A DNA stretch of 64,000 nucleotides from Candidatus Krumholzibacteriota bacterium. Lineage in GTDB: Bacteria > Krumholzibacteriota > Krumholzibacteriia > Krumholzibacteriales > Krumholzibacteriaceae. A model generated the notes under the pieces. That model had not been told where the DNA came from, made no database searches, and saw only the letters and a list, made by a program, of their open reading frames with translations. The stretch is taken from NCBI GenBank assembly GCA_016932415.1, contig JAFGCX010000001.1, positions 1 through 64,000 on the forward strand, given 5' to 3'. How positions within the stretch are numbered: position 1 is the first letter of the stretch; every line of letters begins with the position of its first letter. Of the stretch, positions 35,476 through 40,225 are shown piece by piece. A program made the translations under genes and the position numbers.

Positions 35476-38280
35476 TTAAAAATTGAAGCCGATGAAGAAA
35501 TCAAAGTTCGTATCGGCGGCTATCGTCTTGAAATCGGTCTTCCTGACAAAATTGACCCGTATCACGGGCAGATATCCGAGATTCATCTCCACTCCAGTAC
35601 CGATGCTTCCTATCCAGCCGGTATCATAGATGAACCCATCGACCTTGCCCGCATCAACAAAGACCGAACCCCTGAATACGGGAAACTCGATATGTCCGAA
35701 AGGGAACCTTATCAGAAGATCGTCGACAAGAGGAAACCTGAATTCGCTGTTAAGCAGGAAGATAGCCTTTCCGGCGTACTGCCTGAAATCATACCCCCTC
35801 AGGTCCCAGGCTCCACCGAGATAAAAAAGCTGGATATCGCTGCCCCATGCTTTACGCGTCACCAGCCTCTGCGCGAAGACGAACCTGGGGCCGAAATTTA
35901 TATAATGCCTGAGATCGAACTGAAAGGTCGTGCTTTCGTATCTCGATCCATTGATGTCGAATGACCTTCCAAGGGATATATTCATCCTGTGTCCGTTGAG
36001 CGGCCCTCCCACCGTCCAGACGATATTATCCGAGGTAAAGGAAAGATGATTCGAGACGAGGGTCGTCTTGCCGACCTGCGTTCCCAGGTAGGTGATATCA
36101 TCATCTCGTTCCATGTATTTAAAGATAGTCTGAAAATCGACCCGCCTGAATCTTGATATCGGGTAGCTCAGGCCGGCCATGACTCCATATCGCCTTTCAA
36201 ACCTTATCAATCCGTGGACCGAACCGATATACCCGGCAAGATGAAATGCGCCGAAAGCGTAGTTCAGCCGCTCTTTTTCGTTTATGTAGGTGAACCCCAG
36301 GTTCGCGTTATCCCAGAAATCAGAAAAATCATCAGAAGCGCTGCCGAAAAGAAACACCAGATGATGATCGCTCATCACGTCGGTAAGAAAGATCTGGGCT
36401 CCGTTTCCCATGTACCCGTAATCAGGATCGACGGAAAAAGCGGCCGCGATCAGATCAAGTCCGAATCTGAGGTTGTAATCCTTGTTGAGGTACACCGATG
36501 TCGAATCACTCGGCCTGGGGTCCCAGGAAATATCGATTTTCCCCGGCATATTCCTGGCGCTGACGATATTATCGTATTCGATTATTTTCCTGTAGACGTG
36601 ATAGGCTCCTTCGCTGTATGCCGAGAGGAGAAAAGTATCGCCATCGTATTCGGGGACAGGTTCAAAGGCCCCTCCGAGGAGGTTTGTCTGCCTGTAGAGG
36701 ACTCCATCTTTTTGAAGGTATATGTCAAAGACCCCGTCTCTGTCCGATGAAAAGAGGATCCCGTTCCCGTCAGGCATGTACCTGGGATCGATATCCCTCT
36801 GGTGCCCGGCCGTCAGTCTTGTGATCCGCCTGGTCGCTAGGTCGATTGAGAAAATCGCCTTCTCGTCTCCAGGTTCCCCGCCTGTCCTGTCGGAACTGAA
36901 TATGATCGTTTTTCCGTCAGGATGCCAGTCGGGGCTCAGGTCTTCATAATAGTCGTCGGTGATCCTCTCAAGCGTCCCGTCATCGAGATCCTTTATATAC
37001 AGATCTGTCTTTCCTTTGTTATCCAGAGCGGAAAATACGACTGATTTTCCATCGCGCGAGATGACGGGAGAATTTATCATCCTGACCTCATCACACCTGA
37101 CCGATGATATTATCTTTTCTTCATCCGCGCGGTAGAGGTATATCACATCCCTCTTTCCGGATTTTGAAACGAATACAAGAGTATCATTCCTTGACGATAT
37201 GCGGCTTCTCAGGAGTGGTATCGATTCAAACCTGTCACTCCTTCCTCCTTCTATGATTGTCCTTTTTTTCTGCCTCCCCCTCTTGTCTTTTTCAAGTTCG
37301 AATATATCGATACTTCCCAGCCCGAATCCGGTGCAGAACGTTCTATCCTTCGAATCAGAACCCCTTATTGAAGCGGGATGATTTTCAAAAGACCTTTCTT
37401 CCGGCGAAAGCCTTTCGAGTATTTCAAAAGCCTGTCTTCGTGTCATCACGGACGGATAATATCTTTTCTTGAGGTATTCCCGGTAATCCCTGTCGAGGCG
37501 GTTCTGGCCGATGCCTATCGTGCTGAGCAGGATCAGGTCGAATTTGTCCGATTTCCACCAGTTCTCATGGATCATCCTTATTGCATCATCACCGAACCTC
37601 GTCGCGATATAGTGAAGTACCGATTCTCCATGTTTGTACATCATATAAGTTCCCATTATCCGCCACAGGTCGTCGAGGTAGTATAACCTGTCTGTAATGA
37701 CCGCGTCGCGCATGAACATCTCGGCTTCGCTGTCCATCCCGCGAAGGGCGAGGAATTCCGCGAGACCTTCAGTAAACCAGAGAGGCGGATGCATGTATGT
37801 GTATCTTCGTTGCCTGTGCATCACGACACGAAGTTTTTCAAGCATGAATACGTGTACCATTTCGTGCCTGAATACTCTCTTGAGCTTCCCATAAGATCCC
37901 ATGAAAGGGATCGCGACCCGTCCCTTGATGAATTCAGTGAACCCTCCCGTTCCTTCAGATATGGTGTAAGGTATTATATTCGTCTCCTTGAAATCGTGAT
38001 GCGTTCCATAAAGAATTATGGGGACGCGCCTCTCGATTTCCAGGTCGAAGAAAGCAGAATATTCCTCATAGACTTCTTCGGCCATACCGGCGATGAACTC
38101 GGCGATAGCCAGCTCGTCGGGATAGTAATAGATATCCATGTGCTCGGTCTCAATAACCCGCCATCCTTTTGGGTAGTATTGTACTTTGTTTTTTCCGAAT
38201 GGATACTGGGCATTTGACGGGGCGGGATTCAGAATGGCGAGAACAGTGATGAAATACAGAATTACTCGGACTCTCCGCAT
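35476..38280 (-). CDS. outer-membrane protein: HExxH metalloprotease, TolB-like propeller and Omp85-type barrel
   Basis: 934 residues. A signal peptide (1-24, ending PSNA before Gln) is followed by a peptidase MA-like gluzincin domain: HEMVH at 139-143 and WFTEGLAE at 168-175 giving a third ligand. Residues about 330-600 hold PD40/TolB-like propeller repeats (SPVISRDGKSVVFS, LSPDWHPDGKTIIFSSDR, DPRYMPDGNGILFSSDR). The last 300 residues are beta-strand rich with GGAWDLRGY (about 822-830), the Omp85 GGxxxxRGY signature, and end in Phe like an outer-membrane beta signal. I chose the ATG at 38280, which has AGGAGGATAT before it. It sits in an operon with dapF. Predicted place is the outer membrane; function unknown. 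Confidence 0.85.
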   Translation of the reverse strand: MRRVRVILYFITVLAILNPAPSNAQYPFGKNKVQYYPKGWRVIETEHMDIYYYPDELAIAEFIAGMAEEVYEEYSAFFDLEIERRVPIILYGTHHDFKETNIIPYTISEGTGGFTEFIKGRVAIPFMGSYGKLKRVFRHEMVHVFMLEKLRVVMHRQRRYTYMHPPLWFTEGLAEFLALRGMDSEAEMFMRDAVITDRLYYLDDLWRIMGTYMMYKHGESVLHYIATRFGDDAIRMIHENWWKSDKFDLILLSTIGIGQNRLDRDYREYLKKRYYPSVMTRRQAFEILERLSPEERSFENHPASIRGSDSKDRTFCTGFGLGSIDIFELEKDKRGRQKKRTIIEGGRSDRFESIPLLRSRISSRNDTLVFVSKSGKRDVIYLYRADEEKIISSVRCDEVRMINSPVISRDGKSVVFSALDNKGKTDLYIKDLDDGTLERITDDYYEDLSPDWHPDGKTIIFSSDRTGGEPGDEKAIFSIDLATRRITRLTAGHQRDIDPRYMPDGNGILFSSDRDGVFDIYLQKDGVLYRQTNLLGGAFEPVPEYDGDTFLLSAYSEGAYHVYRKIIEYDNIVSARNMPGKIDISWDPRPSDSTSVYLNKDYNLRFGLDLIAAAFSVDPDYGYMGNGAQIFLTDVMSDHHLVFLFGSASDDFSDFWDNANLGFTYINEKERLNYAFGAFHLAGYIGSVHGLIRFERRYGVMAGLSYPISRFRRVDFQTIFKYMERDDDITYLGTQVGKTTLVSNHLSFTSDNIVWTVGGPLNGHRMNISLGRSFDINGSRYESTTFQFDLRHYINFGPRFVFAQRLVTRKAWGSDIQLFYLGGAWDLRGYDFRQYAGKAIFLLNSEFRFPLVDDLLIRFPFGHIEFPVFRGSVFVDAGKVDGFIYDTGWIGSIGTGVEMNLGYLPVIRVNFVRKTDFKTIAADTNFDFFIGFNF

Positions 38281-38337: not shown

Positions 38338-39165
38338 TTATCGTTCGTATCCCGTTACCGGTATCGTTCCGGTGAAAGATACGACTGCCGGGCCGGACAG
38401 GTGACAATCGGTCGCACCCGTATCGTCAAGAGTGAATTCAACCTGCAGGATATCCCCGCCCGAAGTCTCGCAGCTTACCGGAGATGACGTCAGGCCCATT
38501 TTTGATGTGATCACCGAGATAGCGACGGCTCCCGTACCGCAAGCCAGGGTCTCATCTTCCACTCCTCTTTCATATGTCCTGTACGAGAGCGAATGCCTGC
38601 CGCGCACCGTTACGAGGTTGAAGTTCGTTCCTTCCGGAGCGAAAGCCCGATCGTTGCGTATCAACCTCGCGAGAGCGAGGAACCGCTCACCGCCTATCTT
38701 CCGGACGTCTTCGTCAAGAAGCATCGCGTGAGGGACCCCGCAAATGGCGAACCACGGTTTTAGATCCGATCCTTCAAGCTTCAATGAGCCTGAAACCCGA
38801 TCGACTCTTCCGATCAGTATCTTTACGCCATCATCGAGTATCTCCGCCCTGATATCACCTGAACCGGTCGCGAACGACATCCTTTTTCCCGCGATTTTCC
38901 TGTTGTAGGCGAATAAAGCGGCGCATCTTGCCCCGTTACCGCACATCTGAGCTTCTCCGCCGTCGCGGTTGAAATACCGCATGCGAAAATCACGGTGGTC
39001 GTCAGGCTGTATCAGGATCAGGCCGTCAGCTCCTATGCCGGTATGAAGTCTGCAGAGAGATTCGATGAGCCTGGGTGAGATATCAGGACGGCGTTCAGGA
39101 TCGTCGATCATGATAAAATCGTTACCTGCTCCATGCATCTTTTCGAAATATATATTATCGCTCAT
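38338..39165 (-). CDS. dapF: diaminopimelate epimerase
   Basis: Converts LL- to meso-diaminopimelate for lysine and peptidoglycan. 275 residues. The two catalytic cysteines lie in MCGNGARC (near residue 75) and ACGTGAVA (near 210). The N-terminal HGAGNDFIMID is typical. The start overlaps the end of the upstream lipoprotein gene by 11 bases, and the outer-membrane protease gene follows after 57 bases. Confidence 0.96.
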   Translation of the reverse strand: MSDNIYFEKMHGAGNDFIMIDDPERRPDISPRLIESLCRLHTGIGADGLILIQPDDHRDFRMRYFNRDGGEAQMCGNGARCAALFAYNRKIAGKRMSFATGSGDIRAEILDDGVKILIGRVDRVSGSLKLEGSDLKPWFAICGVPHAMLLDEDVRKIGGERFLALARLIRNDRAFAPEGTNFNLVTVRGRHSLSYRTYERGVEDETLACGTGAVAISVITSKMGLTSSPVSCETSGGDILQVEFTLDDTGATDCHLSGPAVVSFTGTIPVTGYER

Positions 39166-40225
39166 CCTTCTCCCACGTTGTCAGTTCAACGGTAGCGAGG
39201 ACCCTGGCTTCACCCGGGTCTATCTTAAGCGTATCGGCACTGATGACAAACGGCTCAGCGAGGACTTTTGTTGAATCCTCAGGATCAGTATATTCACCGG
39301 GGATGGAATCGGGTTTCAAATCTATGAAAGATATCCACTGATATATACCGGGAACTGCCTTTCTTACGAAATAACTGCCCGTCGTATCCGCCTGCGCGTA
39401 GTAAAAGATATCTTCCTTTTCCAGGTTGTTGAATCTTACCGCTCCCTGACCCGGAAACGCCGTCATGTTCCGGATCACTCCCTTTATTGTGCCCGGTTCG
39501 TCAGGATCGATTATATTCATATCGACACTCCCGATCGACCGATCGAGGGAAGAGAGAAGAATAGTATCAGGGTATGCTGTCGCGAATTCTTTTCCAGCCG
39601 AATACCTGCCATCAGAATCCTTGTCGATAAAAGACCATACAAGGTATCTGTTTCCTCCGGCCGGCAGCGCTCGGAACCGGTAATCACCGAATTTGTCAGC
39701 AAAAGCGGTCCTTGATTCCTTTTCCCTGTAAAGATCCGATATCGTGTCCTCGCTGATTCTCACGAGGCGCGCCACGCCACTGGAATCAGGTCTCTGCTTG
39801 AAAAGTATCTTTCCGGATATCTCTCCCGATTCAAGAGAATCTGAAGTGGAAAAAAAGAAGATGTGATTCTTCCTGCTGACGACAAGGTGATCATCCTTGA
39901 ACCCTGATTTGATAAGCACGCAGATCGTCGTTTCCGGAAGTTCCTCGCGGAAATTGATGACCAGGTCGGTCCCCCTTGTGTATATCTTCTCAAAATCAAG
40001 GGCCGGATATGTCTCGATCCGGCTCTTGAAACTCTCGCCATCGACTTTTTCGGAGAAGGAAATAACGACATCGGATTCCCTTCCCACTCCGGTCGAATCT
40101 GCAGTAGGGGATGTCGAGATGACAGATGGAGGAGTCTTGTCCTCAGGCCCCCCCGTCGGCGGTTTCACGACCGCGCAGGCGGTCATCAACAAGAATACGG
40201 CCGAAAATATAAATCGTGTCCTCAA
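39155..40225 (-). CDS. Ig-like (Big_5) domain lipoprotein
   Basis: 356 residues. A hydrophobic leader ends in the lipobox MTAC, followed by CAVVKPPTGGPEDKTPP, the signature start of a lipoprotein family frequent in Bacteroidetes and relatives. Residues about 30-125 resemble a Big_5 Ig-like domain (PPSVISTSPTADSTGV...VVISFSEKVD). The rest contains carboxypeptidase-regulatory-like beta segments. It is probably lipid-anchored in the outer membrane or periplasm. The start codon is TTG, eight bases after GGGAG, four bases after the argF stop. Function is unknown. Confidence 0.85.
   Translation of the reverse strand: MRTRFIFSAVFLLMTACAVVKPPTGGPEDKTPPSVISTSPTADSTGVGRESDVVISFSEKVDGESFKSRIETYPALDFEKIYTRGTDLVINFREELPETTICVLIKSGFKDDHLVVSRKNHIFFFSTSDSLESGEISGKILFKQRPDSSGVARLVRISEDTISDLYREKESRTAFADKFGDYRFRALPAGGNRYLVWSFIDKDSDGRYSAGKEFATAYPDTILLSSLDRSIGSVDMNIIDPDEPGTIKGVIRNMTAFPGQGAVRFNNLEKEDIFYYAQADTTGSYFVRKAVPGIYQWISFIDLKPDSIPGEYTDPEDSTKVLAEPFVISADTLKIDPGEARVLATVELTTWEKDER

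Follow-up and report, generated by a model that had tools for sequence, protein, structure and literature searches.

The gene at 35476..38280 on the minus strand of the window (the whole stretch of 64,000 nucleotides analysed in this work) encodes a protein of 934 aa, the interval including the stop codon, in which a gluzincin-type peptidase, a TolB-like propeller and an Omp85 barrel are joined in a single chain. This combination had been proposed in a preliminary description of the sequence and was corroborated here by profiles and homologues. The protein belongs to a family which is old, widespread and apparently uncharacterised, and the window gene is not unique. We give about an even chance to the reading of this protein as a periplasmic metalloprotease, anchored in the outer membrane, that serves outer-membrane protein biogenesis with BAM/TAM and is comparable to BepA.

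Domain layout of the window protein

The gene starts with an ATG at 38280, preceded by a strong ribosome-binding site (AGGAGG, 38290-38285), and its GC content is that of the window. All the parts of the protein listed below are encoded on the minus strand. The predicted signal peptide (residues 1-24; 38209..38280) presents a boundary of the A-x-A-Q type common to the homologues; cleavage is expected before QYPFGKNK and there is no lipobox. The N-terminal motif FGKNKVQY (residues 28-35; 38176..38199) is conserved in the family, and a motif of the type FG[KRQN]N[KR][VI] was found directly after the signal peptide in 64/69 homologues, from both paralogue groups.

The peptidase MA-like domain extends over residues ~36-300 (37381..38175). 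It includes the putative zinc-binding and catalytic motif HEMVH (residues 139-143; 37852..37866) and the segment WFTEGLAE (residues 168-175; 37756..37779), whose E171 is the presumed third zinc ligand, judging from the sequence and its conservation among homologues. Peptidase_MA_2 (PF13485) was weak in the window protein, reaching 16.9 bits, below the cut-off of 32.4, whereas in homologues it was recognised at E ≤ 1e-3 in 15/19 short and 12/13 long forms (best value 5.6e-11), and in the long paralogue of the window's own genome it scored 36.5 bits against the same cut-off. The next domain is a TolB-like beta-propeller with PD40 repeats (residues ~310-565; 36586..37353; PF07676, E 6.3e-19). The strongest NCBIfam match of the protein was the TolB propeller TIGR02800 (E 2.5e-30), which covers the propeller only and with 105.8 bits lies below its cut-off of 343.15; the relatives of the protein in the PDB were mainly TolB propellers as well.

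The C-terminal part (residues ~600-934; 35479..36483) was assigned to an Omp85-type barrel by PF01103 and hhalign. The PF01103 match spans residues 697-934 (E 2.4e-7; 31.0 bits vs. a curated cut-off of 24) and the same family was found at E ≤ 1e-3 in 12/19 short and 8/13 long homologues, and in hhalign residues 660-934 matched the C-terminal portion of Omp85 proteins that contain POTRA domains (E 1.8e-12). The sequence GGAWDLRGY (35791..35817) corresponds to the (V/L)RG(F/Y) type motif of Omp85 loop 6, in which G823 and G829 do not vary across 19 short forms, and the last residue of the protein is Phe. The barrel region at 602-934 comprises 333 residues, vs. 332 in the barrel of a control protein, and both contain 17 amphipathic segments, a count that is unspecific since other domains score too. 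AlphaFold2, run with the window protein and one homologue as inputs, gave models of low confidence (mean pLDDT 35.5 for the full protein and 38.6 for the N-terminal domain). No POTRA family match was obtained by profile search in 32 homologues (19 short and 13 long forms), and in the window protein the linker has ~35 residues. The features named in the preliminary description (signal peptide, HExxH, WFTEGLAE, PD40 repeats, GGAWDLRGY and terminal Phe) are all present; as regards the profiles it had put forward, those of PD40 and of the barrel were recovered, the latter above its cut-off, but that of peptidase MA stayed below the cut-off in the window protein.

Distribution, paralogues and conservation of the family

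A survey of related genomes, as had been suggested, yielded homologues of which 69, from two phyla, were examined. Full-length relatives were present in much of the window's phylum (58 related genomes). In genomes that were mostly fragmented, the short-form profile matched at 1e-40 in 54/80 genomes of this phylum, and matches were also obtained in 118/198 sampled genomes of a second phylum, Bacteroidota. The gene product had no match in PHROGs, and in the viral collection the short form had no relative and the long form a single weak match.

Two forms of the protein were distinguished, a short one of ~934 aa, which includes the window gene, and a long one of ~1,050-1,120 aa that contains the same three domains along its whole length (hhalign E 8e-169) with a longer linker before the barrel. 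In a maximum-likelihood tree of 69 proteins from the two phyla (quick search, SH-aLRT support), the short forms of both phyla were separated from the long forms by a fully supported branch. As this branch groups both phyla on each of its sides, both the duplication and the fusion predate the divergence of the phyla.

The HExxH motif together with the downstream motif of the Glu ligand (EG..E/Q) was kept in 69/69 homologues. Comparison with the nearest relative indicated purifying selection on all three domains, strongest on the barrel (pN: peptidase 0.13, propeller 0.195, barrel 0.066; the last value contrasts with a pS of 0.76, synonymous sites being close to saturation). Invariant motifs and purifying selection on the three domains, taken together, excluded a chance origin of the architecture. 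That the barrel is the best-conserved part would not be expected if it were a mere anchor.

Gene neighbourhoods of the short and long forms

In the window, the genes are arranged in the order trmFO-xerC-hslV-hslU-pyrB-PPTGGP lipoprotein-dapF-short form, all on the minus strand (names other than dapF were given by sequence inspection), and a convergent methyltransferase-reductase gene ends 17 bases from the short form. The gene run with dapF and a PPTGGP lipoprotein noticed earlier is therefore real, both genes being located just upstream on the same strand. dapF (38338..39165, minus strand; PF01678, E 4.8e-48) is flanked by the lipoprotein gene on one side and the short form on the other. The lipoprotein (39155..40225, minus strand) carries a Big_5 Ig-like domain (PF13205, E 7.6e-9), and its gene overlaps dapF by 11 bases. 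A PPTGGP lipoprotein gene was located 5' of the short form in 14/16 loci of the window's phylum. A search of the PDB with this lipoprotein returned no relative at E below 0.5, and its identity with BamH or BamI of the Bacteroidota BAM could therefore not be established. The whole stretch topA-trmFO-xerC-hslVU-pyrB-lipoprotein-dapF-short form-proS-uvrC is conserved in the class as a housekeeping block; for this reason dapF was dropped as a functional partner and is probably a passenger of the conserved gene run.

In Bacteroidota, the short form was followed on its 3' side by a gene for a BamB-like lipoprotein in 15/16 loci, and the two genes overlap by 13 bases in most of them. This lipoprotein contains a PQQ propeller (PF13360, E 2e-22) and matched TIGR03300 with an E of 4e-30, yet below the cut-off. 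At loci L133-L147, a gene for a small secreted protein often came after that of the BamB-like lipoprotein.

In 48/52 family-carrying genomes of the window's phylum, the long form was found directly 3' of tamB (PF04357) and on the same strand, a linkage of genes that need not imply physical interaction, that within the phylum partly reflects shared descent, and that is a property of the long form and not of the window gene. The window's own genome presents the order cdsA-dxr-rseP-like genes (named by inspection), POTRA-Omp85, TamB, long form and pcrA; the operon of POTRA-Omp85, TamB and long form, followed by pcrA, occupies L056:4114-13293 (G000 contig C31), and the arrangement is conserved in most of the phylum. 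The POTRA-Omp85 protein beside tamB scored above the NCBIfam cut-off for BamA and is thus most suitably termed BamA/TamA-like.

In genomes of family f5 without the long form, tamB adjoins pcrA with 25-130 bases between them, which indicated that the long form is an accessory whose absence is compatible with retention of TAM. Various genomes within the phylum of the window likewise possess the tamA-tamB pair and lack the gene. Among 21 Bacteroidota loci of the long form, taken from listed high-scoring matches and not at random, tamB was placed 2.1-2.3 kb upstream in 10 and was not nearby in the other 11. Because of these 11 loci and of the genomes that have tamA-tamB alone, the link to tamB is not considered obligatory. 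In the Bacteroidota loci where it was identified (L112, L129, L130 and similar ones), an RNase R gene stood between tamB and the long form. The preliminary description had envisaged a self-contained device, a view that found no support since the relatives show linkage to genes for BamB-like or PPTGGP lipoproteins, or to genes of tamA/tamB type.

Proposed role and relation to described systems

The TamB and BamB-like genes adjoining those of the family suggest that the window protein is probably a built-in quality-control part of the assembly machinery, the most economical model, with which the barrel as the most constrained domain agrees. The C-terminal Omp85 barrel would sit in the outer membrane and could either aid the folding and insertion of clients or dock on BAM/TAM; the propeller, placed where BamA has its POTRA domains, may bind clients or partner lipoproteins, and the N-terminal zinc peptidase would be positioned where the barrel opens to the periplasm. 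There it might clip stalled or misfolded outer-membrane proteins, or mature specific ones, much like BepA next to BAM in E. coli. The short form, that of the window gene, probably works with a lipoprotein partner and the long form probably with TamB. Against this role counts that the Omp85 proteins studied so far mostly use POTRA domains, for which the profile search of 32 homologues gave no match, as does the fact that the tamB linkage belongs to the long form and is not obligatory.

Several other roles were weighed against this one. An enzyme preceding a barrel, as in PlpD, without a POTRA to keep it in the periplasm, speaks for a protease that displays or secretes itself after the older PlpD (type Vd) model, the barrel exporting its own peptidase and propeller to the surface, where extracellular substrates would be cut. 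We regard this as quite unlikely: ~560 residues including a closed propeller would need to pass, the barrel is the most conserved domain, the linkage to tamB and BamB-like genes suits biogenesis better than an exported enzyme, and PlpD itself, a patatin-Omp85 protein of type Vd and the best-studied enzyme-Omp85 fusion, retains its N-terminal enzyme domain in the periplasm (PMC11116518). The processing or secretion at the surface suggested in the preliminary description was likewise left unsupported, given that none of the observations points to an extracellular peptidase and that the PlpD precedent is periplasmic. Alternatively, the barrel could be an anchor or pore and the peptidase could serve some other purpose in the envelope, for instance maturing the neighbouring PPTGGP or BamB-like lipoproteins, processing surface lipoproteins or taking up peptides; the conserved lipoprotein neighbours of the short form would agree with it, as would the faster evolution of peptidase and propeller than of the barrel, which substrate-facing parts may show. 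Given, on the other side, the linkage of the long form to tamB in two phyla and a strongly conserved Omp85 barrel whose LRGY motif suggests more than anchoring, we hold this explanation to be rather unlikely.

Pseudo-enzymes normally lose catalytic residues in some lineages, and here HExxH and Glu persist in 69/69 homologues while the rest of the domain varies, which argues against the peptidase domain being a non-catalytic binding module in what would simply be an Omp85 assembly factor. Even with a Peptidase_MA_2 score below cut-off in the window protein and with the assembly-promoting activity that BepA displays besides proteolysis (PMC8423444), such a module appears very improbable. Least credible is a fusion of a barrel with a TolB-like member of the Tol-Pal system; the propeller is indeed closest to TolB, but the match of 105.8 bits falls far short of the TolB cut-off of 343.15 and is confined to the propeller, and the neighbouring genes that were examined included none recognisable as tol-pal.

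Returning to a protease in the service of barrel assembly, the family could represent, although we put this at somewhat below even probability, an undescribed ancient third arm of TAM/BAM, present in the window's phylum and in Bacteroidota. It would be an Omp85 protein that lacks POTRA, brings along a protease and a propeller and exists as two paralogues, tamB being paired with one and a BamB-like lipoprotein with the other, and it would tie the assembly of barrels to proteolysis on the spot. Diderm bacteria cannot do without barrel assembly, and what is known of its coupling to proteolytic quality control comes mostly from separate proteins of E. coli, BepA among them. A widespread protease-propeller-Omp85 fusion encoded beside tamB and BamB-like genes would give experiments direct access to this coupling, and would also bear on the role of TAM outside Proteobacteria.

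The family shows similarities to several described proteins. Heinz and Lithgow (2014) distinguished a WD40-Omp85 subfamily with a TolB-like propeller, which they likened to a fusion of BamA and BamB (PMC4104836). As in the present family, the propeller precedes an Omp85 barrel and POTRA domains are absent, whereas the main-text passages of that survey on WD40 name neither an N-terminal zinc peptidase nor a linkage to tamB or bamB (PMC4104836). To the extent that these passages allow, by description and not by sequences, our family is probably the same as the WD40-Omp85 set or overlaps with it. The open-licence literature yielded no report of this family's protease domain or of its tamB/bamB linkage, no match for its motif strings and none for a protease in a tamAB operon. 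Judging by those passages of the 2014 survey, the propeller-Omp85 combination was already described, and it is for the protease domain and the tamB/bamB linkage that no earlier report was found.

The Pfam entry PF00149 we take to be a metallophosphoesterase family, of a different fold and not a protease. The 'Metallo' Omp85 subfamily, in the passages of the 2014 survey concerned, rests on this entry, called there a metalloprotease domain (PMC4104836), and its members are therefore unlikely to be proteases. BepA (M48), with HExxH and a third Glu, degrades LptD or promotes its assembly at BAM in E. coli (PMC8423444) and shares with the role proposed here a periplasmic HExxH and Glu protease acting at outer-membrane barrel assembly; in contrast, it is a separate protein of another family, with TPR repeats and without an attached barrel. 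TAM (TamA-TamB) and BAM (BamA-BamB) are the genomic neighbours of the family and include the same barrel superfamily, and its propeller recalls the role of BamB; with a peptidase and without POTRA, however, it does not belong to the TamA, BamA or BamB families. The Bacteroidota BAM with BamG-K, whose structures date from 2025, has lipoprotein and propeller (BamI) accessories, and the passages of these reports that were covered mention no peptidase-propeller-Omp85 subunit (PMC12611786, PMC12578637).

PlpD also carries an N-terminal hydrolase on an Omp85 barrel, but this is a patatin lipase instead of a zinc peptidase, with one POTRA and without a propeller. The window's genome encodes nine Omp85-domain proteins, two of which have a patatin-like start (GGGGARG and SGGGALG; L058:4058-6301 and L061:4557-6803, G000 contig C10). 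On the same contig, a second TamB-type protein is encoded at L057:99-5533 (G000 contig C10), followed by a separate gene for an Omp85 protein of POTRA type.
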